NCBI GenBank assembly: GCA_030651575.1
Contig: JAUSFB010000032.1
Coordinates: 520,001 to 584,000 of the forward strand
Length of the DNA: 64,000 bases
Source: Phaeospirillum sp.
GTDB lineage: Bacteria; Pseudomonadota; Alphaproteobacteria; Rhodospirillales; Magnetospirillaceae
Reading direction: 5' to 3'
Shown here one piece after another: positions 29,727 to 47,765 of the stretch (position 1 is its first letter; every line of letters begins with the position of its first letter). The notes beneath the pieces were generated by a model, which saw only the letters and a program-made list of their open reading frames with translations, was not told the origin of the DNA and did not search any database. The translations under genes and the position numbers were made by a program.

Positions 29727-31742
29727 TCACTCTTTCCCGCCATCGCGCTCGCGCAGGTAATCATCGGTGGTGCGGGTTACCCGGGGGGCCGCACCGGCCA
29801 TGGGCCGCTTGCCGTCCTCCATATCGTACTGCGCCACCACCCGGCAGTCCTCGCACATCTTGATCAGATCAAGCTTGCCGGGCGCGGCGAACATGGAATG
29901 GCCGCTCATGCGCTCGACCATGCGCTCGATCACCGATTTCGAGGCAAAGGGCTTGCCGCAACGGATGCAAGGATAGGGCTCCTCCTCCTTCAGGGTCCGC
30001 CGCACCCTGGCATCGGCGGAAAAGGAGAGTCGCGGCGCCAGGGTCACCGCCTTTTCCGGGCAGGTGACGCGGCACAGGCCGCATTGAACGCAATTGACCT
30101 CCAGCAGCCCCAGGGACGGCTTGTCGGGATGGCCCGACAGCGCCTTGGCCGGGCAAGCCGAGACGCAGGCCATGCACAAGGTGCACTTGGCCGCATCGAC
30201 CTCGATGGCCCCAAAGGGATCGCCCACCGCCAGTTCCAGCGCATCCACCGGCTTGGGAGCATGACGATGAAGATGGGCCAGCGCCAGGGTCAGGGTCTGG
30301 CGCTTGCTTCCCAGCACCAGGAATTCGGCCGCCGGCTCCACCGGTTTCGGCGCGACCTCGGCCAGGACGACGGCCAGGGCGGCGGGATCGGCCTCCACCA
30401 GCACCGAAACCGTCGCCGACCAGCCCAGGCCGCCGGCCACCCGATTGGCCAGGGCGGCGGCGGCCCGCAGCGGCTCCAGATCCCCCCGCCGCTCCGGCTT
30501 GGCCAACAGCAGCACCCGCGCGGCTCCCTTGGCCAGGGCGGTCAGTAGGAAGTCCGGCCCCAGCGCCGCCACCACCGGCACCGCCAGCGGCAGCACCGCC
30601 GCCGGCAGGCCATCGCCAAAACGGGCCAGGGCGGAGATCATCCCGTCACCATGCTCGCCGTCATGGACCAGCAGGATCGGCCGCTCGCCACCGCCGGCGC
30701 CATAGGTCTCCACCAGCGCCGACAGCCGTTTAAACAACCCGTTGCCGCCCGGCACGTCGAACCGGATGGCTCCGGTGGGGCAAGTGCTGGCGCAAGGACC
30801 ATGGCCGCCGCAGACATGGGGGTCCACCGTCGCCGCATCGCCCAGCGGCTTCAGCGCCCCCGACGGACAAACGTCGAGGCAGCGGGTACAGGCGACCTGA
30901 CCATTTCGGGAATGGGCGCAAAGCGCGGCGTCGATCTTGATCCAGCGCGGTTTTTCGAATTCGCCGACCAGCCCGAGGATATCCGACAGCGCCCGCTCCA
31001 GCGCCAGCTTGTCCCGAGGATCGACCACTACCCAGCCGTCGCGCGGCGCCAGCAATGGCGGCGAGCCGGTCAGGTCGAGCACGATGTCTCCGGCCAGCGG
31101 GCGGTCACCCACCGCCGCCTCGAAGGCCAGGACGCCGCGCGCCGATGGTGAAGCCCCAGCCAGATCGGCGACAGTCAGGGTAAAGGCCCCGAGATGGCCC
31201 GAGGCCGAGACCGGCCGCCCCCGAAACAGGCCGAGGGAGCGGACCGCCGGAGGAATCAGGTCCCCGTCATGACCGGGCAACAGCACGCAGGTCACCGCCC
31301 GCTCCGCCCCCAGCCGTCGGGCGGCGTCCAGCACCGCCTGACCACGACCCAGAATCAGAACGCTGCCATGCGACATCAAGGTGACGGACGGAGTGGCTTC
31401 GGGCTCCAGCACCGCCTCGGCCAGCAGCGCCGCCATCTTTGGGGCGGTGCGCCCGGCCTGGGACGACCAGCCGGCGCGGTCGCGGATATCGACGCAGAGC
31501 GGCGGCTCGGCCTGGACCAATCCGGCCAGTTCGCCGAACAGCGGAGCCTCTTGACCGCAGCAGACCAGCAAAGGCTCGCCGCTCGACACCGCCGAACGAT
31601 AGGAATCCAACTGGGCGCGGCAAAGCTGGGAATAAATCTGCTCTGGTGAATCCGTCCCCAGCACCGCCGCCACGGCCTTGGGATCGAGCGGCATGGAGCC
31701 CTCGCACGAACACATCATCACCCGCCGGCCATTCAGCTTCAT
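29727..31742 (-). CDS. Multi-cluster 4Fe-4S ferredoxin-like protein of the formate dehydrogenase locus
   Basis: GGGAGAG precedes the ATG at 31742; the track ORF starts 25 codons too early. The 671-aa protein contains several ferredoxin motifs: CTRCLDVCPSGALKP with CGGHGPCASTCPTGAI in the middle, and CTLCMACVSACPAKA with CVQCGLCRVTCPEKA near residue 530. A late CIRCGKPF and MCEDCR pair may bind another metal. N-terminal and central regions resemble heterodisulfide reductase A-like folds without a flavin motif. It is found with FDH3-type clusters and may carry electrons or help assemble clusters. It is divergent from fdhD by 63 nt. Confidence 0.82.
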   Translation of the reverse strand: MKLNGRRVMMCSCEGSMPLDPKAVAAVLGTDSPEQIYSQLCRAQLDSYRSAVSSGEPLLVCCGQEAPLFGELAGLVQAEPPLCVDIRDRAGWSSQAGRTAPKMAALLAEAVLEPEATPSVTLMSHGSVLILGRGQAVLDAARRLGAERAVTCVLLPGHDGDLIPPAVRSLGLFRGRPVSASGHLGAFTLTVADLAGASPSARGVLAFEAAVGDRPLAGDIVLDLTGSPPLLAPRDGWVVVDPRDKLALERALSDILGLVGEFEKPRWIKIDAALCAHSRNGQVACTRCLDVCPSGALKPLGDAATVDPHVCGGHGPCASTCPTGAIRFDVPGGNGLFKRLSALVETYGAGGGERPILLVHDGEHGDGMISALARFGDGLPAAVLPLAVPVVAALGPDFLLTALAKGAARVLLLAKPERRGDLEPLRAAAALANRVAGGLGWSATVSVLVEADPAALAVVLAEVAPKPVEPAAEFLVLGSKRQTLTLALAHLHRHAPKPVDALELAVGDPFGAIEVDAAKCTLCMACVSACPAKALSGHPDKPSLGLLEVNCVQCGLCRVTCPEKAVTLAPRLSFSADARVRRTLKEEEPYPCIRCGKPFASKSVIERMVERMSGHSMFAAPGKLDLIKMCEDCRVVAQYDMEDGKRPMAGAAPRVTRTTDDYLRERDGGKE

Positions 31743-31805
31743 TTTGCCGCTCTCCCATTGCTCCCCGCCAGGGGGACGCCTACTGTAAAGGCCAGAAGGC
31801 CAACA

Positions 31806-32687
31806 ATGGAAGACCAAGACATGCTAGTGCGCCCAGATCCCGAGGATGCGCGGCTTTATCAGATCGTCACCGGCATCGACCAGAACGGCAAAGCGACGGA
31901 TGCCGCCGTGATCAACGAACGCCCGCTGACCATCTTCCTGAACGGTCGCGAGATCGTCACCGCCATGACCATCGGCGACCATCCCGACTATCTGGCGCTG
32001 GGCTATCTGCTGAATCAGAATATGCTGCGCCCCGACGACGAAGTGCGCGCCGTCGATTATGACGCCGAAATCGAAACGGTGGTGGTGCGAACCGCCCGCC
32101 AGACCGACTACGAGGAGAAGCTGAAGAAGAAAATTCAGACCTCCGGCTGCGCCATGGGCACGGTGTTCGGCGACGTCATGGAAAAGTTCGAGACGGTCAG
32201 TCTGGACACCACCGCCAGATTCCACACCTCATGGCTCTACGCCTTGCAGAAATCCATCAACACCATGCCTTCGCTCTACCTGAAGACCGGCGCCATCCAT
32301 GGCTGCGTCTTGTGCGAAGAAGACCGGCCGCTGATCTATATGGAAGACGTCGGCCGCCACAACGCCATGGACAAGATCGCCGGCTATATGTTCCGCCACG
32401 GCCTGTCTTGCGCCGGGAAAAGCCTCTACACCACCGGACGGCTGACCAGCGAAATGGTGATCAAGACGGTGCAGATGGGCATTCCGGTCCTGCTGTCGCG
32501 CTCGGGCTTCACCGCCTGGGGGGTCGAACTGGCGCGCAAGGCGGGGCTCACTCTGATCGGCCGCGCCAAGGGCAAACGCTTCATCGCCCTGGCCGGGGCC
32601 GAGCGCATCGTGTTCGACGCCGACCCGGCCCAGGCCCATGACGAGCCCGGCCACCTGTCGCGCAAGGGAAGCCGGGACGATGAATAA
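31806..32687 (+). CDS. fdhD: Formate dehydrogenase accessory sulfurtransferase FdhD
   Basis: FdhD passes sulfur from a cysteine desulfurase to the Mo-bis-MGD cofactor of formate dehydrogenase. The ~293-aa product carries family motifs: ERPLTIFLNGREIVTAMTIGDHPDYLALGYLL, EDVGRHNAMDKIAGYM and GRLTSEMVIK. The sulfur-transfer site is unusual: E. coli has CxxC, but here only one Cys remains in SGCAMGTVFGD. A second Cys pair occurs later in HGCVLCEE. Either ATG at 31806 or 31821 is possible. The stop overlaps mobA by 8 nt. Confidence 0.92.
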   Translation: MEDQDMLVRPDPEDARLYQIVTGIDQNGKATDAAVINERPLTIFLNGREIVTAMTIGDHPDYLALGYLLNQNMLRPDDEVRAVDYDAEIETVVVRTARQTDYEEKLKKKIQTSGCAMGTVFGDVMEKFETVSLDTTARFHTSWLYALQKSINTMPSLYLKTGAIHGCVLCEEDRPLIYMEDVGRHNAMDKIAGYMFRHGLSCAGKSLYTTGRLTSEMVIKTVQMGIPVLLSRSGFTAWGVELARKAGLTLIGRAKGKRFIALAGAERIVFDADPAQAHDEPGHLSRKGSRDDE

Positions 32688-33816
32688 GACAACGCCCCCC
32701 CCCATCGCCGGGGTGATCCTGGCCGGCGGCCTATCGCGGCGCATGGGCGGCGGCGACAAGTCGCTGATCGCGGTCGAGGGCCAAAGCCTGCTCGACCGCA
32801 CCATCGAGCGGCTGTCGCCCCAGGTCGGCCCCATGATCCTCAACGCCAACGGCGACCCCGCCCGTCTGGCCGGGTTCACCCTGCCGGTAGTGCCCGACGT
32901 GATCGAGGGCTATGCCGGCCCGCTGGTGGGAGTCCTGACCGGCCTGGAATGGCTGCAAGACCACTCCATGGGGGTGGAATGGATGGTCAGCGTCGCCGCC
33001 GACACGCCTTTGTTTCCCCAAGATCTGGTGGAACGGCTGCACCAGGCGGTCGTGGACGAAGGGGCCGATATCGGCATCGCCTGCACCGGTTCGCGCACCC
33101 ATCCGGTCTTTGCCCTGTGGCCGACCCGCTTGGCCTCCCAACTGCGCGCCGCCGTGGCCGAGGAAGGCATCCGCAAGATCGAGGCCTGGACCGACCGCTA
33201 CAAGGTGGCCCGCGTCGATTGGCCGGCAAAGCCGGTCGACCCGTTTTTCAACGTCAACACCCCCGAGGACGTGGTGCGGCTGCGCCTGATCCTGTCCGAC
33301 GCCCTGCCAGCCGAACCGCCACTCTCCGCCCGGACCGAGGTGGCGCTGATCCTCGAACGCCGCGACAGCGCCACCACCTGGGTCAAGGAGTCCTGGCGGC
33401 CGCTGGAAGTGATCGCCGAACCGCCGCCCAGCCCCGAGCCCTGGGTGATGCTGCGCCAGGGCGAAGGCTTCGAACACTACCTGGTCTCGGGCGTGCCGGT
33501 GGAATTGCACCGCTCGGACCTCGCCAGCTATCGCTATAATCTGGGTGGGGTCGATCCCCGCCTCTATGTGGTGCTGCGCCGTCAGGACGATCCCACCCGC
33601 CCCGTCGGCGTGGTGTTGGCCACCGCCGCCCCCGATCAGGCCCAAGCCATGAGCGAAAGCGGCGAGGATGTGGTCGACGGCCTTGCCATGCCGGAAGCCC
33701 TCCGGGCCTGGGTCGAGATGTTCTGCGCCTGTCACCCCGCCGACGAGCCCATGCGCAAGCGCAAACGCGACACCATGGATGCGGAAGGCGCCTTCGCGGC
33801 CAAAACCCGGTCATGA
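32680..33816 (+). CDS. mobA: MobA molybdenum cofactor guanylyltransferase fused to DUF3305
   Basis: Residues 1-205 are MobA, which links GMP to molybdopterin: the nucleotide motif is VILAGGLSRRMGGGDKSL, with VAADTPLFP and NVNTPED downstream. Residues from about 218 to 370 match DUF3305 (EVALILERRDSATTWVKESWRPLEVI). DUF3305 is usually a stand-alone gene in formate dehydrogenase clusters. The fusion ties this orphan domain to cofactor handling. The ATG at 32680 overlaps the fdhD end by 8 nt. The following gene is DUF3306, its usual partner. Confidence 0.9.
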   Translation: MNKTTPPPIAGVILAGGLSRRMGGGDKSLIAVEGQSLLDRTIERLSPQVGPMILNANGDPARLAGFTLPVVPDVIEGYAGPLVGVLTGLEWLQDHSMGVEWMVSVAADTPLFPQDLVERLHQAVVDEGADIGIACTGSRTHPVFALWPTRLASQLRAAVAEEGIRKIEAWTDRYKVARVDWPAKPVDPFFNVNTPEDVVRLRLILSDALPAEPPLSARTEVALILERRDSATTWVKESWRPLEVIAEPPPSPEPWVMLRQGEGFEHYLVSGVPVELHRSDLASYRYNLGGVDPRLYVVLRRQDDPTRPVGVVLATAAPDQAQAMSESGEDVVDGLAMPEALRAWVEMFCACHPADEPMRKRKRDTMDAEGAFAAKTRS

Positions 33817-33834
33817 GCGGGCATGGCCCGCGCC

Positions 33835-33982
33835 GCGAAAGCCAAGGGCGCTGATGCGCCCACCCGGCGACCGAGGAACAAGAACCCGACGGGCCGCAGG
33901 CCCGGAGTTGCGGCCAAGGGCCGGCGCGCCTCATGGCGCGAAAGCCAAGGGCGCGGATGCGCCCGCCCGGCGATTGAGGAAC
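33835..33982. repeat. Pair of 45-bp direct repeats with internal hairpins
   Basis: Copy 1 (33835-33879) and copy 2 (33938-33982) start GCGAAAGCCAAGGGCGC and end GAGGAAC, differing at four positions. Each contains the hairpin GGGCGC-NNAT-GCGCCC. The end of copy 2 supplies the GAGGAAC ribosome binding site of the DUF3306 gene. The pattern resembles a REP-like intergenic repeat or a local duplication. Confidence 0.75.
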
Positions 33983-33990
33983 ATTAAACC

Positions 33991-34413
33991 ATGAACAACT
34001 CATTCATCTCGCGCTGGTCCAAACGCAAGCAGGAGGCCAAGACCGCGCCGGAATCGGTCGTCATCGTCGAGATGCCGGCAGAATCGCCAGCCATTGCCCC
34101 GGAGGAACCGCCGCCGGAGCTTCCCCCGATTGAATCGCTGGGCGCCGACTCGGACTATTCCGCCTTCCTCGGGCCGGGCGTTTCGCCCAGCCTGCGGCAG
34201 GAGGCGCTGACCCGGCTGTGGGCGACCGATCCCACCCTGATGGCCCCAGAGACCATGGACCTCCATATGGGGGACTATTCCAACCCGCCGACGGAACTGA
34301 TCAAAACCGCCTGGCGACTGGGCAAGGGCGTGCTCGACGCCGCCGAACTGGCCGCCGAGGAGGAGGAAGCCAAGGCCGCGGCCCTGGTCAAGCCCCCGGA
34401 TTCCGATTGTTAA
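33991..34413 (+). CDS. DUF3306 domain protein of the formate dehydrogenase locus
   Basis: This 140-aa soluble protein starts MNNSFISRWSKRKQE and matches DUF3306: a basic N-terminus, a Pro/Glu-rich linker (EEPPPELPPIESLGADSDYSAFL), then LRQEALTRLWATDPTLM. The last 40 residues are acidic-helical. DUF3306 accompanies DUF3305 in alpha- and betaproteobacterial formate dehydrogenase operons, presumably as a maturation factor; no activity is established. The ribosome binding site comes from the repeat immediately upstream. Confidence 0.88.
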   Translation: MNNSFISRWSKRKQEAKTAPESVVIVEMPAESPAIAPEEPPPELPPIESLGADSDYSAFLGPGVSPSLRQEALTRLWATDPTLMAPETMDLHMGDYSNPPTELIKTAWRLGKGVLDAAELAAEEEEAKAAALVKPPDSDC

Positions 34414-34642
34414 AGTGTTTATTTTACAGAAATTTTTAAATTTCACACAATTAAGAACATAAACAAAATTGCAGCAATCCTGATATTGCAGAGCACAAAT
34501 TCTTATCCGGCCACAACACGTAGACAACAAACCTATTCTTTCGTTGTTCTTGACGGATAACACCGATGCGAGGATGATCGACCTGTCACTTGCCAAGGGT
34601 GACCAAGGTTTCGGCGACAGATCCGAACCATCGGGAGAGACT
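34414..34642 (+). promoter_or_regulatory. AT-rich regulatory region before the formate dehydrogenase structural genes
   Basis: This 229-nt gap is strikingly AT-rich against its neighbours (TTTTACAGAAATTTTTAAATTTC). It contains an imperfect palindrome CAACAAACC..TTTCGTTG near 34525-34547 and a TTGACG at 34550. It most likely holds the main promoter of the torD-fdhABC unit. I cannot assign a regulator. Confidence 0.5.
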
Positions 34643-35248
34643 ATGCAGGCGAACCCCGCCACCAATGCCGGTACGGACGAAAGTTTCCTGCGGGCTCGCT
34701 TCTATGGCCTGATCGCCGCCCTGTTGGCTTCGCCTCCACCGGAAGAATTACTGCGCCGGGTCGCCGCGCTGAAGCCCGACCCAACGCCGCTGGGCAGCGC
34801 GCTGGGCGAGCTTGCCCTGGCTGCCATGGCCGGCGACCCCGATGACATCGCCGAGGAGTTCCAGACCCTGTTCATCGGCGTGACCGGTGGCGAACTGGTG
34901 CCTTACGCCTCGTGGTATCTCACCGGCTTCCTACAGGAAAAACCGCTAGCGGCGTTGCGCGACGACATGGCCCGCCTGGGCGTCGAACGCTCGCCCGGCG
35001 TGTCCGAGCCCGAGGATCACGCCGCCTCGCTGTTCGAGATCATGCAAGGACTGATCACCGGCCTGTTCGACGCCCCCCTGACCCTGCGGGAGCAGAAGGC
35101 CTTTTACGCCGCCCATATGGAAAGCTGGATGCCCCGTTTTCTGGCCGACCTGGAACAGGCCGGGTCCGCCCGCTTTTACCGCGCCGTGGGCAAGGTTGGC
35201 CGCGTCTTCCTCGATATCGAAACCCAAGCCTTCGCCATGGTGGACTGA
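34643..35248 (+). CDS. TorD-family molybdoenzyme chaperone
   Basis: TorD/DmsD-type chaperones bind the Tat signal of a molybdoenzyme and keep it from export until the cofactor is in place. The 201-aa all-helical product begins at the ATG at 34643, after GGGAGAG. It has the family signature regions FYGLIAALLASPPP, EEFQTLFIGVTGGELVPYASWYLTG and ASLFEIMQGLI. The likely client is FdhA, encoded two genes later. Its stop codon touches the first possible start of the next small gene. Confidence 0.9.
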   Translation: MQANPATNAGTDESFLRARFYGLIAALLASPPPEELLRRVAALKPDPTPLGSALGELALAAMAGDPDDIAEEFQTLFIGVTGGELVPYASWYLTGFLQEKPLAALRDDMARLGVERSPGVSEPEDHAASLFEIMQGLITGLFDAPLTLREQKAFYAAHMESWMPRFLADLEQAGSARFYRAVGKVGRVFLDIETQAFAMVD

Positions 35249-35265
35249 TGCCACAGGAGCACAAG

Positions 35266-35475
35266 ATGATCGACCGCCCTGAGAAATCCCCCAATGCCCT
35301 CGACCGGCGCGCCTTCCTGCGCGGAATCGGCCTTTCGGCCGGAGCCGCCGGAGCGGCGGCGGTCGGTGTCACCGCCACCAAGGCGGACGCCAAGGCCCAG
35401 ACCGGTGCCGCCCAAGGGACTGGCTACCAGGAAACCGAACACGTCCGTCGCGCCTACGAAGCCGCTGGCTTCTGA
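35266..35475 (+). CDS. Small twin-arginine-signal protein of the formate dehydrogenase locus
   Basis: This 69-aa protein is not a separate entry in the ORF track. AGGAG sits 7 nt before the ATG at 35266. It is almost entirely a Tat signal: DRRAFLRGIGLSAGAAGAAAVGVTATKADAKA, followed by a short tail ending HVRRAYEAAGF. Such tiny Tat proteins precede fdhA in many FDH3-type operons. Their role is unproven; a small exported companion or assembly helper of FdhA is likely. Confidence 0.85.
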   Translation: MIDRPEKSPNALDRRAFLRGIGLSAGAAGAAAVGVTATKADAKAQTGAAQGTGYQETEHVRRAYEAAGF

Positions 35476-35493: not shown

Positions 35494-38373
35494 ATGCTGA
35501 TCAAGAAGCGTGAAGGCTCGGTTTCGCAGAGCCGCCTGTCCGAAACCCTCGCTTCCGTCGCCGGGGCCTCCGTCGACCGGCGCGGCTTCCTCAGGCGTTC
35601 GGGGCTGGCCGCCGGTGGCGCCGCCCTGGCCGGAGGATTGGTGGCCGGAACGGTCCAGCGGGCCGAAGCGGTTCCCCAGGCTCCCGACGCCAAGGGAGAG
35701 ATCAAGCGGGCCATCTGTACCCATTGCTCGGTGGGCTGCACCGTCAACGCCGAGGTCTCCAACGGCGTCTGGGTCGGCCAGGAACCCGCCTTCGACAGCC
35801 CGATCAATCTGGGTAGCCACTGCGCCAAGGGCGCGGCGGTGCGCGAGCATGCCCATGGCGACCGCCGCCTGAAATACCCCATGAAGCTGGAGGGCGGAAA
35901 ATACAAGCGCATCTCGTGGGAGCAGGCCATCACCGAGATCGGCGACCGCCTGCTGAAGATCCGCGAGACCGCCGGTCCCGATTCGGTCTACTGGCTGGGC
36001 TCGGCCAAGTTCTCCAACGAACAGGCCTACCTCATGCGCAAATTCGCCGCGCTGTGGGGCACCAACAACGTCGATCATCAGGCCCGCATCTGCCACTCGA
36101 CCACCGTCGCCGGCGTCGCCCAGACCTGGGGCTATGGGGCGATGACCAACTCCTACAACGACATTCATAATTCCAAGGCGATGTTCTTCATCGGCTCCAA
36201 CGCGGCCGAGGCCCATCCGGTGGCCATGATGCACATCTTGAAGGCCAAGGAGCAGAACAAGGCGCCGCTGATCGTCTGTGATCCGCGCTTTACCCGCACC
36301 GCCGCCCATGCCGACGAGTTCGTCCGCCTGCGCCCCGGCACAGATGTGCCGCTGATCTGGGGCATCCTTTACCACATCTTCGAGAACGGCTGGGAAGACA
36401 AGGAATACATCCGCAAGCGCGTTTGGGGCATGGATCAGGTCCGCGCCGAGGTTGCCAAATGGACTCCGGAGGAGACCGAGCGCGTCACCGGCGTTCCCGG
36501 CGCCCAGGTCCGGCGCGTCGCTGAATTGCTGGCCAAAAACCACCCCGCCACCGTGGTGTGGTGCATGGGCGGCACCCAGCACACCGTCGGCAACAACAAT
36601 GTCCGCGCCTATTGCATCTTGCAGCTGGCCCTGGGCAATACCGGCGTCGCGGGCGGCGGCACCAACATCTTCCGCGGCCATGACAACGTCCAGGGCGCCA
36701 CCGACATGGGCCTGGACGTCACCACCCTGCCGGCCTATTACGGCCTCGCCGCCGGAGCCTGGAAGCATTGGGCGCGGGTATGGGGCCTCGACTACGAGTG
36801 GATCAAGGCCCGTTTCAAGACCCCCGAGCTGATGGAGGCTCCCGGCATCCCGGTATCGCGCTGGTATGACGGCGTCAACGAGGCCAAGGAAAACATCGCC
36901 CAGCCCGAACCGATCAAGGCGATGATCTATTGGGGCCACGCCCCCAACTCCCAGACCCGCCAGCCCGAACTGAAGAAGGCGATGGAAAAGCTCGACACCC
37001 TGGTGGTGATCGACCCCTATCCCACCGTCACGGCGGTGCTGCACGACCGCACCGACGGCGTCTATCTGCTGCCCGCCGCCACCCAATTCGAGGTGGACGG
37101 CTCGCGCACCGCGTCCAACCGCTCGATCCAGTGGAGCGAGCGGGTGATCAAGCCGATGTTCGAGTGCAAGGCCGATCACGAGATCATGTATCTATTCGCC
37201 AAGAAGTTCGGCTACGACGCCGAATTGTTCAAGAACATCAAGCTCAACGGCGCCGAGCCGCTGGTCGAGGACATCCTGCGCGAGATCAATCGCGGCGCCT
37301 GGACCATCGCCTATACCGGCCAGTCGCCAGAGCGGCTGAAACTGCACATGGCCAACCAGCAGACCTTCGACAAGACCACCTTGAAGGCGGTGGGCGGCCC
37401 GTGCGACGGCGACTATTACGGCCTGCCCTGGCCGTGCTGGGGCAATGCCGCCATGAAGCATCCCGGTACCCCCAACCTCTACGACACCTCCAAGCCGGTG
37501 AAGGATGGCGGCCTCAACTTCCGCGCCCTGTTCCCGGAATACAAAGGTGAAAGCCTGCTGGCGGTGGATTCTTGGCCCGAAGGCTCCGAGCTTCCCGCCG
37601 GCCATCCCGGCGTCACCTTCGGCATGCTGAAAAAGCTGGGCTGGGAGGCCGATTTCACCCCCGAGGAACTGGCGGTGATCAAAAAGATCGGTGGCGAGAA
37701 GGTGGACGAGGTCGCCTGGACGGTGGATATGTCCGGCGGCATCCAGCGCGTCGCGGTCAAACACGGCATCGCGCCATTCGGCAACGGCAAGGCCCGCGCC
37801 GTGGTGTGGAACTTCCCCGATCCAGTGCCCATCCACCGAGAACCGCTGTATACGCCGCGCCGCGATCTGGTGGAGAAGTACCCCACCTATGCCGACAAGA
37901 AGATGATGCGGCTGCCCTTCCTTTATAAGACCATCCAGGACAAGGACGTCTCGAAGGACTTCCCCATCATCCTGACCTCCGGGCGGCTGGTGGAGTACGA
38001 GGGCGGCGGCGACGAGACCCGCTCGAACCCCTGGCTGGCCGAGTTGCAGCCCGATATGTTCGTCGAGGTCAACACCTTCGACGCCAACAATGTGGGCGTG
38101 CGCAACGGCGAGTTCGTCTGGGTCCACGGCCCCGAAGGCGGCAAGGTCAAGGTCAAGGCCAAGATCACCGAGCGGGTAGGACGCGGCGTTGCCTTCATGC
38201 CGTTCCACTTCGGCGGCTGGTTCCAGGGCAAGGATCTCCGGTCCAAATATCCGGAGGGCGCGTCTCCCATTGTCCTGGGCGAAAGCACCAACACCGCCCA
38301 GACCTACGGTTATGACGCGGTGACGGCCATGCAGGAGACGAAAGTCACCCTGTGCCGCATCGAAAAGGCGTGA
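35494..38373 (+). CDS. fdhA: Formate dehydrogenase catalytic (Mo/W-bis-MGD) alpha subunit
   Basis: This periplasmic enzyme oxidises formate to CO2. The 959-aa product has a Tat signal (DRRGFLRRSGLAAGG, about 28-42). The [4Fe-4S] site Cys75-x2-Cys78-x3-Cys82...Cys110 lies in CTHCSVGC. The metal ligand is a normal Cys200 (RICHSTTVAG), not selenocysteine; no in-frame TGA occurs. Further motifs (MFFIGSNAAEAHPVAMMHIL, GNTGVAGGGTNIFRGHDNVQG) fit the membrane-bound FDH alpha family. It is followed by the beta subunit, lipoprotein and cytochrome subunits. Confidence 0.95.
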   Translation: MLIKKREGSVSQSRLSETLASVAGASVDRRGFLRRSGLAAGGAALAGGLVAGTVQRAEAVPQAPDAKGEIKRAICTHCSVGCTVNAEVSNGVWVGQEPAFDSPINLGSHCAKGAAVREHAHGDRRLKYPMKLEGGKYKRISWEQAITEIGDRLLKIRETAGPDSVYWLGSAKFSNEQAYLMRKFAALWGTNNVDHQARICHSTTVAGVAQTWGYGAMTNSYNDIHNSKAMFFIGSNAAEAHPVAMMHILKAKEQNKAPLIVCDPRFTRTAAHADEFVRLRPGTDVPLIWGILYHIFENGWEDKEYIRKRVWGMDQVRAEVAKWTPEETERVTGVPGAQVRRVAELLAKNHPATVVWCMGGTQHTVGNNNVRAYCILQLALGNTGVAGGGTNIFRGHDNVQGATDMGLDVTTLPAYYGLAAGAWKHWARVWGLDYEWIKARFKTPELMEAPGIPVSRWYDGVNEAKENIAQPEPIKAMIYWGHAPNSQTRQPELKKAMEKLDTLVVIDPYPTVTAVLHDRTDGVYLLPAATQFEVDGSRTASNRSIQWSERVIKPMFECKADHEIMYLFAKKFGYDAELFKNIKLNGAEPLVEDILREINRGAWTIAYTGQSPERLKLHMANQQTFDKTTLKAVGGPCDGDYYGLPWPCWGNAAMKHPGTPNLYDTSKPVKDGGLNFRALFPEYKGESLLAVDSWPEGSELPAGHPGVTFGMLKKLGWEADFTPEELAVIKKIGGEKVDEVAWTVDMSGGIQRVAVKHGIAPFGNGKARAVVWNFPDPVPIHREPLYTPRRDLVEKYPTYADKKMMRLPFLYKTIQDKDVSKDFPIILTSGRLVEYEGGGDETRSNPWLAELQPDMFVEVNTFDANNVGVRNGEFVWVHGPEGGKVKVKAKITERVGRGVAFMPFHFGGWFQGKDLRSKYPEGASPIVLGESTNTAQTYGYDAVTAMQETKVTLCRIEKA

Positions 38374-38387
38374 GGAGGACATAGATC

Positions 38388-39014
38388 ATGGCCCGCATGA
38401 AATTCCTCTGCGACGCCGAGCGTTGCATCCATTGCAGCGGCTGCGTCACCGCCTGCAAGAACGAACACGAAGTGCCGTGGGGCATCAACCGCCGAAGGGT
38501 GGTGACGCTCAACGACGGCAAGCCGGGGCAGCGCTCCCTGTCGGTGGCCTGCATGCACTGCTCGGACGCGCCCTGCATGGCGGTCTGTCCGGTGGATTGC
38601 TTCTACCAGACCGGCGACGGCATCGTGCTGCACAACAAGGATCTGTGCATCGGCTGCGGCTATTGCTTCTACGCCTGTCCGTTCGGTGCGCCGCAATACC
38701 CCTCCACCGGCAATTTCGGTGGACGCGGCAAGATGGATAAGTGCACCTTCTGCGCCGGCGGTCCCGAGGCCGACCATTCCAAGGCGGAATTGGAAAAATA
38801 CGGCCGCAACCGCATCGCCGAGGGCAAGCTGCCGCTCTGCGCCGAAATGTGCGCCACCAAGGCCCTGCTGGCCGGCGATGGCGACATGGTGTCCACCATC
38901 TACCGCGAACGGGTGATGGCGCGCGGCTTCGGGTCCGGCGCCGCCGGCTGGGGCCACGCCTATCGCGAGCAGGAGCGCACCCGCGAACGCAAGGGGCCTG
39001 GGGCGAAGGAGTAG
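38388..39014 (+). CDS. fdhB: Formate dehydrogenase iron-sulfur (beta) subunit
   Basis: This 208-aa electron-transfer subunit binds four [4Fe-4S] clusters. The visible motifs are CIHCSGCVTACKNE, CMHCSDAPCMAVCPVDC, CIGCGYCFYACPFGA and a Cys-rich set (CTFCAGG, LCAEMCATKA). The length matches the short FDH3 beta type rather than E. coli FdnH, which carries a C-terminal membrane helix. It relays electrons from FdhA to the cytochrome b subunit. The ATG at 38388 follows GAGGAGG, 14 nt after fdhA. Confidence 0.94.
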   Translation: MARMKFLCDAERCIHCSGCVTACKNEHEVPWGINRRRVVTLNDGKPGQRSLSVACMHCSDAPCMAVCPVDCFYQTGDGIVLHNKDLCIGCGYCFYACPFGAPQYPSTGNFGGRGKMDKCTFCAGGPEADHSKAELEKYGRNRIAEGKLPLCAEMCATKALLAGDGDMVSTIYRERVMARGFGSGAAGWGHAYREQERTRERKGPGAKE

Positions 39015-39018
39015 CGCC

Positions 39019-39294
39019 ATGAGCAGCCGACGCACCACCATCACCGTCACGTTGGGGCTGGTCCTGTTGGCCGGCTGCAACGCCGAGGAACGCGGCCATG
39101 CGATCAAACTGGACAAGGGCGTCTATGCCGGGGCGTCGGACAGCGTGCTATCCGACGCCACCCGTCTTGCCCTGAACCAGCGCATGATCTGGCAGACCGA
39201 CGGCCCCGCCAGGGTAGCGACGGCGACCGGCCCCGCCGCTATGCCGTCGGGCACGGCCGCCGTCACCGGCCGCATGGCCGGCCAGAACTATTGA
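39019..39294 (+). CDS. Small lipoprotein inside the formate dehydrogenase operon
   Basis: This 91-aa protein has a lipobox (VLLAGC, Cys at about 19), so it is anchored to a membrane facing the periplasm. The mature part is short: KLDKGVYAGASDSVLSDATRLALNQRMIWQ, then a Gly/Ala-rich tail. It starts 4 nt after fdhB and ends just before the gamma subunit start, so it belongs to the operon. I recognise no domain. It may help hold the periplasmic enzyme at the membrane. Confidence 0.75.
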   Translation: MSSRRTTITVTLGLVLLAGCNAEERGHAIKLDKGVYAGASDSVLSDATRLALNQRMIWQTDGPARVATATGPAAMPSGTAAVTGRMAGQNY

Positions 39295-39308
39295 GGAGGA
39301 GGAACGCG

Positions 39309-40289
39309 ATGCGCTGGACCACCTTCCTCGCGAGTCTGCTGATCATCGCCGGGTGCTGGGTGCCCCCGGCAATGGCGGCCTCGTCCGATGGCGACATTCC
39401 CACCGCCGCCCAGTCCGACCGGATCTCTCAGCCGGACACTTGGCGCGCCATTCGTCAGGGCGAAGGCGGCTTCATCGCCGGCCAGCCCGCCCAGCGCGGT
39501 GTGCTGATTCAGTCCGAGGGCGAATCCTGGCGGGCGGCGCGCAACGGCAAGCTGGCCTGGTATGCCGGATTGGCCCTGGTGGGGGTCAGCCTCGCCATCG
39601 GCGCGTTCTACTTGTTCCGCGGCAAGATCATGATGGAGGGCGGACCGTCGGGAAAAACCATCCTGCGCTTCACCAGGATCGAACGCATCGGCCATTGGAT
39701 GACCGCCGGCTCGTTCCTGGTGCTGGGGATCAGCGGGTTGAACATGCTGTTCGGGCGCTGGCTGCTGGAACCGCTGATCGGGAAAACCCTGTTCTCGTGG
39801 CTCACCTGGGCCGGCAAATGGCTGCACAACCTGTCGGGCTTCGTCTTCATCGCTGGAATGGTGGTGATCTTCGTGCTGTGGGCCAGGGACAATCTGTGGG
39901 ACCGCTATGACGCCGGCTGGATCGCCCATGGCGGCGGCCTGCTGAAGAAAGGCGATCATCCCCCCGCCGCCAAATTCAATTTCGGCCAGAAGACTCAGTT
40001 CTGGATGGTGATCGTGGTCGGCGCCCTGGTGTCGTCCACCGGCATCAGCCTGCTCTTCCCCTTCAGCTTCGCCGATCTGGCCGGTATGCAGGTAATGCAG
40101 TTGGTCCATGCCGCCCTGGCGGTGGTCATGGTGCTGTTCATCCTGGGCCATATCTATATCGGCACGGTGGGCATGGAAGGCGCCAGCACCGCCGTCACCA
40201 CCGGCTATGTGGACCTGGAATGGGCGCGCACGCACCACGCCGTCTGGGTCGCCGAGGAGGAGACCAAGACGGCCAAACCGGCGGAGTAG
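39309..40289 (+). CDS. fdhC: Formate dehydrogenase cytochrome b (gamma) subunit
   Basis: GAGGAGGAGG lies upstream of the ATG at 39309; the track start at 39291 is a TTG. The 326-aa protein has an N-terminal signal peptide ending AMA and a periplasmic stretch. Four membrane helices follow, with heme-ligand-like His in RIERIGHWM, WLHNLSGFVFI, and HIYIGTVGMEG. It matches the FdnI/FdoI-type subunit that takes electrons from FdhB and reduces quinone in the membrane. Confidence 0.93.
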   Translation: MRWTTFLASLLIIAGCWVPPAMAASSDGDIPTAAQSDRISQPDTWRAIRQGEGGFIAGQPAQRGVLIQSEGESWRAARNGKLAWYAGLALVGVSLAIGAFYLFRGKIMMEGGPSGKTILRFTRIERIGHWMTAGSFLVLGISGLNMLFGRWLLEPLIGKTLFSWLTWAGKWLHNLSGFVFIAGMVVIFVLWARDNLWDRYDAGWIAHGGGLLKKGDHPPAAKFNFGQKTQFWMVIVVGALVSSTGISLLFPFSFADLAGMQVMQLVHAALAVVMVLFILGHIYIGTVGMEGASTAVTTGYVDLEWARTHHAVWVAEEETKTAKPAE

Positions 40290-44321: not shown

Positions 44322-44742
44322 AGCGGCCCAGGGCCTTGGCCAGGGCCTTGAACGGCAGCAGGACGCAGCCATGACGGCTTTTATGCGGCCGAACCGTCAG
44401 GAAGGGCGCCAGGGCCGGAATCGGCGGTTCTCCACCCTGTTTCAGCATAACGCTTACCCGGTCGGCCAGTGTCGCCGCCACATCCGCCTCCAGCCCGACC
44501 GCCGAGCGCGCCGCCACGGTGGCGGCCGCCTTGCACAGCAGGCAGCCCTTGACGCCATGGCCCAAAGCCTCGATCCGGCCATCGGTCAGACGCAGGTCAA
44601 GCACAACCGTGTCGCCGCACAGCGGGTTGTCCAGGGTCGCGCTGGCATCGGGCACGTCCAGCCGCCGGGCCGCCACCGCCGCCAGATCCTTGATTTCCTG
44701 CTGGTAGATAGCCTCGGTCATATTTTCACCGGGGTTGCTCAT
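44320..44742 (-). CDS. Iron-sulfur scaffold protein, NifU/IscU-like (SufU type)
   Basis: The start is ATG at 44742, overlapping the desulfurase stop by 4 nt. The 140-aa protein has three Cys in IscU/SufU-like positions: NPLCGDTV, GCLLCKAAATV and HGCVLLPF. These hold a nascent Fe-S cluster or accept sulfur. Its direct pairing with a cysteine desulfurase supports sulfur transfer. Here the surrounding operon is for a molybdenum enzyme, so it may serve that enzyme's Fe-S subunit or its sulfurated cofactor. Confidence 0.85.
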   Translation of the reverse strand: MSNPGENMTEAIYQQEIKDLAAVAARRLDVPDASATLDNPLCGDTVVLDLRLTDGRIEALGHGVKGCLLCKAAATVAARSAVGLEADVAATLADRVSVMLKQGGEPPIPALAPFLTVRPHKSRHGCVLLPFKALAKALGR

Positions 44743-45938
44743 CGCAGCACCTTGAACGCCAAGTCCAGCCCGTCCAGCAGGGCCTCCACATCGGCCCGGT
44801 TGGTATAAGGCGCCAGACTGGCCCTGACGCAGCCTTCCTCCAGCCCCAGCGCCGTCATCAGCGGCCGGGCGCAATGAGCGCCCCCCCGCACCGCCACTCC
44901 CCGCTCCGCCAGCAGATGCGCCAGATCATGCGGGTGACAGCCTTCGGCCACGAATGACACCACCGGCAGGCGCGCCTCCAGCTTCAGCGGCCCCACCACC
45001 CGGACACCGTCCAAGGCGGCGAGCCCGTCGAGCAGATGCCGGGTCAGGCTCATCTCGACCGCCGTGACCGCCGGCCAGTCCAGGCCGCTCATCCAGTCCA
45101 GCGCCACCCCCAGCCCCACCGCCTGGGCCACCGGCGGCGTACCGGCCTCGAAGCGCTGTGGCGGGTCCAGCGGCAGAGCGCCGTCCAGCCCGACCATGCC
45201 GACCATGCCGCCACCCCACAGCACCGGCGGCAGCTGGGCCAACAGCTCGCGCCGTCCCCACAGCACCCCGATTCCGGTGGGGCCGTAGGCCTTGTGTCCG
45301 GCGAAGGCGTAGAAATCCGCCCCCAGAGCGCGCGGATTCACCGGCCCGTGCGGAACCATCTGAGCGCCGTCCACCACCAGTCTGGCCCCAACCGCATGGG
45401 CGGCCTCGGCCAGCCGGGGAATATCGGTCACCGCTCCGGTCACATTGGACGCGTGAGTCACCGCCACCACCCGGCAATGCTCGTTTATCAGCGACAGGTC
45501 GTCCAGCCGGAGACGGCCATCGTCGTCCACCGCCAGGGTCACGACCTCGAACCCCTTGCGCTGGGCCAGCATCAGCCAGGGCAGCAGGTTGGAGTGATGC
45601 TCGGCCACCGACGCCACGACCCGGTCGCCCGGCCCCAAGGCCTCCCCCAAGGCCAGCGCCAGCATATTGAGCGCCATGGTGCAGCCGCCGGTGAACACCA
45701 CTTCGTCCATCTCGGCCGATAGAAAGCGGGCGACGCTCTGGCGGGCCGCGTCATAGGCGTCGTCGGCGCGGCGGGCCAATTCGTGCAGGCCGCGGTGGAC
45801 ATTGGCCCGCGCGGTCAGGTCGTGATGGGCCACCGCCTCCATCACCGCACCGGGCAATTGCGCCATGGCGGCGCTGTCCAGGTAATGAAATCCGGCGCGG
45901 TCCAGCACCGGGAAAACAGTCCGAATCGCGACGGTCAT
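44739..45938 (-). CDS. Cysteine desulfurase, SufS/CsdA type
   Basis: This 399-aa PLP enzyme takes sulfur from cysteine, leaving alanine. The PLP-lysine is in FAGHKAYGPTG and the catalytic Cys is in RGGAHCARPL, typical of the class II SufS/CsdA group. It overlaps mocA at its start and the scaffold gene at its end by 4 nt each. In this operon it is a good candidate to sulfurate the Mo cofactor of the xanthine dehydrogenase/CO dehydrogenase family. Confidence 0.9.
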   Translation of the reverse strand: MTVAIRTVFPVLDRAGFHYLDSAAMAQLPGAVMEAVAHHDLTARANVHRGLHELARRADDAYDAARQSVARFLSAEMDEVVFTGGCTMALNMLALALGEALGPGDRVVASVAEHHSNLLPWLMLAQRKGFEVVTLAVDDDGRLRLDDLSLINEHCRVVAVTHASNVTGAVTDIPRLAEAAHAVGARLVVDGAQMVPHGPVNPRALGADFYAFAGHKAYGPTGIGVLWGRRELLAQLPPVLWGGGMVGMVGLDGALPLDPPQRFEAGTPPVAQAVGLGVALDWMSGLDWPAVTAVEMSLTRHLLDGLAALDGVRVVGPLKLEARLPVVSFVAEGCHPHDLAHLLAERGVAVRGGAHCARPLMTALGLEEGCVRASLAPYTNRADVEALLDGLDLAFKVLR

Positions 45939-46513
45939 GGCTGGCCTCCCTGAGCCTTGAGGTCTTCGGGCGTGTCCACATCGATCAGGACGCCCTGATC
46001 CATCTCGACCTCCACCACCGAGCCGCCATGCTGGATCAACAGCCCCCTGGCGCCCTTGTCGCCGGTCAAGCCCCGCATCTCGGCGAAAAAGCGCCGCCCC
46101 AACAGCACCGGATTGCCCCGTCGCCCGCCCGATACCGGAACCGCGATCTCATGGCCGGACTCGGGGGCGTAGGCCGCCGCCAGCGCCGCCACATGCAAGG
46201 CCGTGACGCGCGGCATATCACCCAGCAGCACCACCGCCGCCGCCGCTTGGGACGGCAGGGCGGCGATTCCCAACGCCAGGGACGACGCCATACCGCGCTC
46301 GGGGGCGGGGTTGGACACCACGATCAAGCCGGGGGGAAGCACGGAGAGCGGCTCCGGCCCGGTCACCACCACCACCGGATCAAGGCCGGCTTCGACCGCC
46401 GCCCGCACCGCCAGCACCACCATGGGCACTCCGCCGATTTCGGCCAGCCGCTTATCGCGCCCCATACGGCTGGCGCGACCCGCCGCCAGCACGATCCCCG
46501 CGATGGCGCTCAT
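45935..46513 (-). CDS. mocA: Molybdenum cofactor cytidylyltransferase, MocA type
   Basis: From the ATG at 46513 this 192-aa nucleotidyltransferase has the motif VLAAGRASRMGRDKRL and VVLLGDMPRVT. It belongs to the MobA/MocA superfamily; the setting next to CoxM and CoxS fits MocA, which attaches CMP to the cofactor of xanthine-dehydrogenase-family enzymes. It overlaps coxM by 4 nt and the desulfurase by 4 nt. The track places it inside a longer spurious ORF. Confidence 0.88.
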   Translation of the reverse strand: MSAIAGIVLAAGRASRMGRDKRLAEIGGVPMVVLAVRAAVEAGLDPVVVVTGPEPLSVLPPGLIVVSNPAPERGMASSLALGIAALPSQAAAAVVLLGDMPRVTALHVAALAAAYAPESGHEIAVPVSGGRRGNPVLLGRRFFAEMRGLTGDKGARGLLIQHGGSVVEVEMDQGVLIDVDTPEDLKAQGGQP

Positions 46514-47295
46514 GACGCCGCGACCGCGCGGCCGGCCAGAACCCCGATCAAGTGGGCGCGGTACTCGGCGGTGGCGTGCAGGTCGCGGTTCAGGTCGCCG
46601 GCAGGAACCGACAGCCCGGCCAGCGCCGCCGGGCTGAACTCCCGCTCCAACGCCGCTTCGAACTCGGGCAGGCGAAAGACGCAAGCCCCGGCTCCGGTCA
46701 CCGCCACCCGAACCCCGGCCTCCCCCCCGGTCTGGGCGACGAAAACCCCGACCACGGGATAGCCGGAGGCCGGGTTGCGAAGCTTGGCGTAACCGGCGCG
46801 GCACGGCAGCGGATAGGAAACCTCGACGATGACCTCGTCCGGTTCCAGCGCGGTCTCGAACATGCCGAGAAAAAAGTTGTCGGCCGGAATGACGCGGCGG
46901 TCGGTGCGGATCTCCGCGCCCAATCCCAACGCCCCGGCGGCGTGATCGCCGGCCGGATCGTTATTGGCCAGCGCGCCGCCCAGCGTGCCCATATTGCGAA
47001 CCTGAAGGTCGCCGATGGAGCCGGCCAGAGCGGCCAGGGCGGGAATCTCCACTCCCACAGCCATCTCGGCATGGGTGATTCCGGCCCCGACCACCCAACA
47101 TGCGCCATCGCGGCGAATGCCGCGCAATTCGGCCAGACGGGCAAGGTCGATCAGGGTCGATGGCGCCGCCAGCCGCAGCTTCAGCGCCCCCAGCAGACTC
47201 TGACCGCCGGCAAGGTAGCGCGGCTCCTCCCCTTGCCCATGGGCGGCGATGGCCTCGGTCACGCTGGCGGGACGGATATAGTCGAAGGGGAACAT
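46510..47295 (-). CDS. coxM: FAD-binding medium subunit of a xanthine dehydrogenase/CO dehydrogenase family enzyme
   Basis: The 261-aa product starts at ATG 47295, whose A is the last base of the coxS stop. FAD motifs are clear: YLAGGQSLLGALKLR and NMGTLGGALANNDPAGD. It is the medium subunit that passes electrons from the Fe-S subunit to FAD. The catalytic large subunit (about 750 aa) is not in the operon or anywhere else in this window. Confidence 0.92.
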   Translation of the reverse strand: MFPFDYIRPASVTEAIAAHGQGEEPRYLAGGQSLLGALKLRLAAPSTLIDLARLAELRGIRRDGACWVVGAGITHAEMAVGVEIPALAALAGSIGDLQVRNMGTLGGALANNDPAGDHAAGALGLGAEIRTDRRVIPADNFFLGMFETALEPDEVIVEVSYPLPCRAGYAKLRNPASGYPVVGVFVAQTGGEAGVRVAVTGAGACVFRLPEFEAALEREFSPAALAGLSVPAGDLNRDLHATAEYRAHLIGVLAGRAVAAS

Positions 47296-47765
47296 CACCC
47301 ACCTGCCTGTCGGGCGCGGATAGCGTCGACCACCGCGTCGATGATGGGACGATAGCCGGTGCAGCGACACAGATTGCCGGACAGGCCCTGACGGATGGCG
47401 TCGTCGTCGGGCTGTTCGAGATGCTCGACCAGATCCAGCGCCGTCATCACCATGCCCGGCGTGCAAAAGCCGCATTGCAGCGCGTGACGGTCGCGGAAGG
47501 CCTGCTGCACCGGGTGCAGGGTCTCGCCGCTTGCAACGCCCTCGATGGTGAGGATGGACCGACCATCGGCCTGAGCCGCCAGCACCAGACAGGATTTAAC
47601 GGCGCGCCCGTCCAGATGGACGGTGCAGGCGCCGCACTGGCCGGTATCGCAGCCCAGATGGCTGCCGGTGAGGCCGAGACGCTCACGCAGGAATGTCACC
47701 AGCAACAGCCTCGGCTCGACCTCGGCCTGGACCGGCTGGCCGTTGACCTGGAGCGAAATACGCAT
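47295..47765 (-). CDS. coxS: [2Fe-2S] small subunit of a xanthine dehydrogenase/CO dehydrogenase family enzyme
   Basis: The 156-aa product starts at ATG 47765 and carries two [2Fe-2S] sites. The plant-type ferredoxin motif is GCDTGQCGACTVHLDG, and the C-terminal helical site is CGFCTPGMVM with CRCTGYRPI. It is the electron-relay small subunit. It is the first gene of the five-gene minus-strand operon and overlaps coxM by one base. The ATG is preceded by AAGGGGGATAT. Confidence 0.94.
   Translation of the reverse strand: MRISLQVNGQPVQAEVEPRLLLVTFLRERLGLTGSHLGCDTGQCGACTVHLDGRAVKSCLVLAAQADGRSILTIEGVASGETLHPVQQAFRDRHALQCGFCTPGMVMTALDLVEHLEQPDDDAIRQGLSGNLCRCTGYRPIIDAVVDAIRARQAGG

Follow-up and report, generated by a model that had tools for sequence, protein, structure and literature searches.

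Why should MobA, which is expected to serve many molybdoenzymes of a cell, be joined in one chain to a domain that accompanies a single type of formate dehydrogenase (FDH)? How bis-MGD finds its way from MobA into one of several enzymes is a question for which E. coli shows transient contacts only (TorD-MobA and NarJ-MobA), and a covalent join between the sole MobA of a genome and an FDH-specific domain would provide a clean, testable case in the genetically workable Magnetospirillum. Such a join is encoded in the 64,000-nucleotide stretch of Phaeospirillum sp. DNA analyzed here (contig JAUSFB010000032.1; the whole stretch is referred to as the window). The genes and parts concerned are the following, in window positions.

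29727..31817, minus strand: large 4Fe-4S ferredoxin-domain protein of 696 amino acids, divergently oriented, a constant neighbor of the cluster
31758..32687, plus strand: fdhD, FDH accessory sulfurtransferase, overlapping mobA-DUF3305 by 8 nt; one-cysteine loop TSGCAMGT
32680..33816, plus strand: mobA-DUF3305 fusion gene, 378 amino acids, ATG start, both domains in the same stop-free frame
32701..33282, plus strand: MobA (molybdenum cofactor guanylyltransferase) domain, residues 8-201; TIGR02665, and PDB 1E5K by sequence and fold
33283..33336, plus strand: inter-domain linker, residues 202-219, the least conserved part
33337..33765, plus strand: DUF3305 domain (PF11749), residues 220-362, from Pfam and the AF2 model
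33991..34413, plus strand: DUF3306 (PF11748), 140 amino acids, the constant neighbor of DUF3305
34544..35248, plus strand: TorD/NarJ-family chaperone (PF02613); an internal ATG may be the true start
35251..35475, plus strand: small Tat-signal protein, just under the cut-off of TIGR02811, 'formate dehydrogenase region TAT target' (44.7 against 48.45 bits)
35494..38373, plus strand: fdhA, Mo/W catalytic subunit; Tat motif RRGFLRRSG, cysteine in the active-site stretch RICHS
38388..39014, plus strand: fdhB, scoring 342 bits (cut-off 240) with NF038355, 'formate dehydrogenase FDH3 subunit beta'
39291..40289, plus strand: fdhC, cytochrome b (gamma) subunit of formate dehydrogenase, passing the cut-off of TIGR01583

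The fusion claimed by the first-pass annotation is real in the sense that one open frame carries both domains. Pfam places PF12804 on residues 11-169 (E 2.6e-37) and PF11749 on residues 220-362 (E 2.5e-37; 128.7 bits against a gathering threshold of 25, covering the full profile, 1-140), and both parts are present in an AF2 prediction for the full-length chain (pLDDT 88). A second in-frame ATG is present upstream at 32638; position 32680, which gives the usual MobA N-terminus and an 8-nt overlap with fdhD, is the likelier start. The architecture is not new. It is already catalogued as NCBIfam NF011058 (PRK14489.1-3), 'molybdenum cofactor guanylyltransferase MobA, DUF3305 domain-containing', which has the same two domains in the identical order and a name that assigns no function. 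Residues 8-377 of the fusion protein align to this model with 598.4 bits; the model cut-off is 820, and so, the protein would not be named by it automatically.

The MobA half is an ordinary, intact MobA domain, with a predicted GTP:Mo-molybdopterin guanylyltransferase activity. The fusion protein scores 205.2 bits with TIGR02665 (cut-off 151.85), and residues 8-201 align to E. coli MobA (1E5K) with the motifs LAGG..RRMGG.DK and DTP retained. The best PDB matches of the fusion model are the E. coli MobA structures 1H4D and 1E5K, with a TM score of 0.86 by target length. E. coli MobA is like the N-terminal half in fold and motifs, but it does not have the extra C-terminal domain.

A profile search of the window's genome finds one MobA above cut-off, and it is the fused one. 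NapA and a TIGR01591-type FDH are encoded there too, with scores of 1588 and 739 bits that exceed the respective cut-offs, and both kinds of enzyme depend on bis-MGD. The fused MobA must therefore supply these two enzymes as well, and any tethering to FdhABC cannot be exclusive. We also considered a separate, FDH-only MobA and rejected it; the one other, weak MobA hit, at 45935-46804, has a MocA-like family as its best match. This gene for a MocA-like nucleotidyltransferase lies in a minus-strand cluster (44739-47475) whose other genes encode a cysteine desulfurase of the SufS kind and a xanthine/aldehyde-dehydrogenase-type FAD subunit, a distinct Mo-enzyme line. FdhD genes number three in this genome, against one MobA. 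Two other loci in the genome (L230 at C71:482500-487500 and L232 at C2:12500-18000), as well as L231, encode molybdopterin-type enzymes of about 930 amino acids, and fdhD adjoins two of the three; these enzymes gave zero NCBIfam matches at E<=1e-60.

By its sequence features, FdhABC is a Tat-exported, membrane-bound respiratory FDH with an active-site cysteine; FDH3 is the NCBI model name. The order DUF3305-DUF3306-TorD-Tat protein-fdhA-fdhB-fdhC is conserved across loci, and a subset of the loci has fdhD-mobA ahead of it. DUF3306 and a TorD-family chaperone, which the annotation had named as the partners of DUF3305, are thus found beside it.

In the DUF3305 half, eight residues of the domain (W20, W25, Y70, N73, P79, T101, K146 and R147) are invariant in 40 of 40 alignment rows, the window included. 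Predicted alone, the domain has a pLDDT of 86 and a pTM of 0.76, and the model consists of four strands, a helix, two strands, a helix, a strand and a helix (seven strands and three helices), followed by a C-terminal tail that is predicted to be disordered and is basic, with a conserved K-R-K-R. Foldseek searches against the PDB and a viral set returned no fold relatives at E<=0.001, and sequence-profile searches with DUF3305 gave zero matches to another family. We regard this as a confident model with no match in the PDB and do not claim a new fold. In families f225 and f227 of the phylum sample, the DUF3305 matches are limited to profile positions 52-140, and the N-terminal four-strand part may have been lost there or have diverged too far. 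One genome that has the MobA-DUF3305 fusion (G547) also has a second DUF3305-DUF3306 pair (L088, C5:238000-249500), in which DUF3305 covers profile positions 57-140 only and FDH genes are absent nearby.

The distribution of DUF3305 displays a clear pattern, and this pattern is one of the new findings here: a near one-to-one link between DUF3305 and FDH3-type FdhA. Among 385 genomes across the class, DUF3305 is present in 59, FDH3-type FdhA in 58 and both in 57 (Fisher p about 1e-64, a value that ignores kinship among the genomes), which bears out the association with formate dehydrogenase assumed by the annotation. DUF3306 is present in 58 of the 385 and shared with DUF3305 in 57. In the phylum sample, DUF3305 was found in 41 of 299 genomes. 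The class mismatches come to three genomes. In the first (G313), DUF3306 lies at a contig edge, and so, a DUF3305 gene has probably been missed; the next (G312) is 79% complete. In the third, G125, which is 98% complete, the ferredoxin gene is present along with the block DUF3305-DUF3306-mobA-fdhD, and FDH3-type FdhA was not detected.

The same pattern is seen within one genus, which is Magnetospirillum/Paramagnetospirillum going by named records. The fused tail occurs in each of the 10 genus genomes that carry FDH3-type FdhA. The three sampled genus genomes that do not have DUF3305 (G498, G556 and G565) do not have FDH3-type FdhA either. G498 has a tail-less MobA that ends 13 residues past the domain and just a 32%-identical FDH relative, and the other two have neither FDH3-type FdhA, DUF3305 nor MobA. 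Comparison of the genus genomes with and without the tail therefore indicates that the DUF3305 tail follows FDH3-type FdhA and not MobA.

How widespread is the fusion itself? The annotation had suggested a search for other MobA-DUF3305 fusions, and these were found, with the domains in one frame, in each of the 10 sampled DUF3305-bearing genomes of the genus and in five genomes of two other families (f198, three genomes of one genus, and f3, two genomes). Eight named records from Magnetospirillum/Paramagnetospirillum and near relatives are fused as well, although six of these records are contigs already counted among the genus genomes. These occurrences rule out a frameshift artefact of a single genome, the outcome that the annotation had named as refuting its idea. 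Long DUF3305 frames in six other genomes (G348, G366, G131, G122, G785 and G707) were rejected as fusions; the adjacent MobA domain is absent from them. DUF3305 was not found on viral contigs, and plasmids gave MobA hits only, none spanning 80% of the fusion.

Most DUF3305 proteins are unfused, and many genomes have mobA elsewhere. The two genes are separate neighbors at 20 loci, and in 18 of these pairs the mobA stop and the DUF3305 start codon overlap by 4 nt (ATGA), in differing frames. A small change would therefore suffice to fuse them, which makes the fusion weaker evidence for a common step in maturation. At the fusion point, the conserved pair fdhD-mobA meets a second conserved pair, DUF3305-DUF3306.

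The number of origins depends on which tree is consulted. Single-gene trees do not reject one origin for all of the fusions (p-AU 0.23 for MobA and 0.25 for DUF3305). However, a tree of FdhD, MobA, DUF3305 and FdhA, made by a quick search under a simple model and with a shared history of the four genes assumed, rejects a single clade of all fusions versus the adjacent-gene loci (p-AU 0.00026), and with it one origin for all of the sampled fusions. Therefore, given a shared history of the four genes, the fusion arose at least twice. A single origin of the f1 and f3 fusions is not rejected by the four-gene tree (p 0.74), and these two may have a common origin. The linkers of the three fused groups have no sequence relationship.

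Both halves of the fusion protein are under purifying selection. Median dN/dS values in the genus are 0.30 for the MobA half, 0.34 for the DUF3305 half and 0.57 for the linker; the f198 values are 0.08, 0.05 and 0.19, respectively, the linker value coming from one pair. Since dN is lower than dS in the DUF3305 half, DUF3305 is no decaying tail.

Periplasmic FDHs of E. coli need FdhE, which is, like DUF3305, restricted to Tat-exported respiratory FDHs (PMC10609526). FdhE_N (PF04216) was detected in one of 76 genomes surveyed and missing from the other 75, with E. coli as a positive control; 73 of the 76 carry DUF3305, and the remaining three are the genus genomes that do not. DUF3305, DUF3306 and the TorD-family chaperone are thus a candidate replacement for FdhE, proposed from a survey set that is nearly all DUF3305-bearing. 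The sequence-profile and fold searches with DUF3305 gave no match to FdhE.

Several known systems resemble parts of this one. Other fusions put MobA and a late Mo-cofactor factor in one chain (MobA-MobB and MoaC-MobA; NF011056, NF011059 and NF011070), but the partners there are general cofactor factors, whereas DUF3305 goes with a single enzyme. TorD/NarJ/DmsD-type chaperones are enzyme-dedicated, as DUF3305 is, and TorD and NarJ contact MobA (PMC9103625, PMC10609526, PMC4464133); E. coli TorD is a platform that binds both MobA and apo-TorA (PMC9103625, PMC10609526), and the NarJ-MobA interaction has been described (PMC4464133). DUF3305 differs from these chaperones in its strand-rich fold and unrelated sequence, and a separate TorD-family protein is encoded in its cluster. 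In Methylorubrum, a MobA-FdhD contact was seen by two-hybrid (PMC13197769). Among the relevant papers that a literature search returned, DUF3305 and DUF3306 are named only in PMC4464133, which describes them as putative membrane proteins beside dmsD-fdhGHI.

The reading that we prefer, with a probability of about 0.45, is that DUF3305 serves the maturation of FDH3-type FdhA alone, at or near the handover of bis-MGD, and that the fusion holds MobA at this place, next to FdhD. The fusion product would then be a two-headed cytoplasmic protein. Its MobA half would convert Mo-molybdopterin to bis-MGD for every bis-MGD enzyme of the cell, and its DUF3305 half would dock on an apo-FdhA assembly that includes the TorD-like chaperone and DUF3306, the latter presumably taking part in FdhA assembly. 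New bis-MGD would be delivered by the fused MobA beside FdhD, a form of channelling, and FdhD, encoded just upstream, would sulfurate and insert the cofactor. This reading draws on the co-occurrence of DUF3305 with FdhA and DUF3306, the conserved gene order, the genus comparison, the repeated origins, the dN/dS values and the known MobA contacts. Against it count the prevalence of unfused DUF3305 proteins, the many genomes with a distant mobA, the other enzymes that the fused MobA must serve, the ease with which the overlapping genes can fuse, and G125. We consider it quite probable that DUF3305 has some FDH-specific role in maturation, a much safer statement than one about the exact step. The annotation proposed that DUF3305 itself acts in cofactor transfer, which is plausible, and its interpretation is supported in part. 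It is doubtful, at present, that the whole of a larger scheme holds, namely that DUF3305 is a new molybdoenzyme maturation factor with a fold that has no PDB representative, that it replaces FdhE for FDH3-type FDHs together with DUF3306 and the TorD-like chaperone, and that it forms a physical link between the making of bis-MGD by MobA and a single apoenzyme.

A real possibility, if short of an even chance, is that DUF3305 serves FDH3-type FdhA alone in maturation or quality control, at a step other than handover (e.g., Tat proofreading, Fe-S loading or subunit assembly), that it stands in for FdhE together with DUF3306 and TorD, and that the fusion to MobA is a tolerated by-product or a dosage fix. 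The missing FdhE agrees with this, as does the fact that most DUF3305 genes do not have a MobA neighbor, and the known last handler of the FDH cofactor is FdhD, not MobA (PMC10609526). The ATGA overlap makes the fusion mutationally cheap, and so, it may be near-neutral. However, a neutral fusion alone leaves unexplained both the repeated origins and the conservation in every sampled genus genome that bears DUF3305, even if adjacency makes repeats likelier, and the FdhE survey covered almost exclusively genomes with DUF3305.

We think it improbable that DUF3305 acts on MobA itself, tuning or sequestering it (for example, by directing bis-MGD towards FDH or by affecting the choice of Mo or W), with no docking on FdhA. 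Its covalent attachment to the genome's sole MobA would fit such a role, and metal-selective late branches exist in Methylorubrum (PMC13197769), but most genomes with MobA do not have DUF3305, and DUF3305 tracks FdhA rather than MobA. Very improbable is a joined frame that reflects a sequencing or assembly frameshift, or a separate DUF3305 made from an internal start. One indel would join the overlapping genes of the unfused neighbors, and an internal GTG (window) or ATG (L089 and L092) is present in or just past the linker. Yet all 10 of these genus genomes, each sequenced independently, show the fusion in the same frame, as do genomes of two other families; the linkers of the groups are unrelated and both halves are under selection, so that the frameshift variant is already refuted; by reading of the sequence, no strong ribosome-binding motif precedes the internal GTG.

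The locus also points to a possible FdhE-free maturation in a widespread class of respiratory FDHs. These enzymes are wanted for CO2 reduction, and their heterologous production is often limited by maturation. The tight DUF3305-FdhA coupling, the absence of FdhE and the natural tail-less MobA within the genus are the results most worth keeping.

A few other observations concern the cluster. FdhD of the window and of related loci has a single cysteine in its sulfur-transfer loop (TSGCAMGT or TSGCAQGT) and not C-x-x-C; the loop cysteines are generally known to vary (PMC10609526). The gap that separates the fusion gene from DUF3306 (positions 33808-33990) is filled by two imperfect 80-nt direct copies, 78% alike and 103 nt apart. 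In the nearest relative (L090), the DUF3305 and DUF3306 matches are almost contiguous, and therefore the duplication looks recent. At another locus (L091, G544:C89), about 78 kb of a single contig separates fdhA from the group formed by fdhD, the fusion and DUF3306, and so the FDH accessory genes need not adjoin the enzyme operon. Finally, in two MAGs labelled Gammaproteobacteria (L171 and L174), the DUF3305-DUF3306 pair is on the opposite side, facing the TorD-fdhABC operon, an arrangement which implies that the pair moves as a unit of its own.
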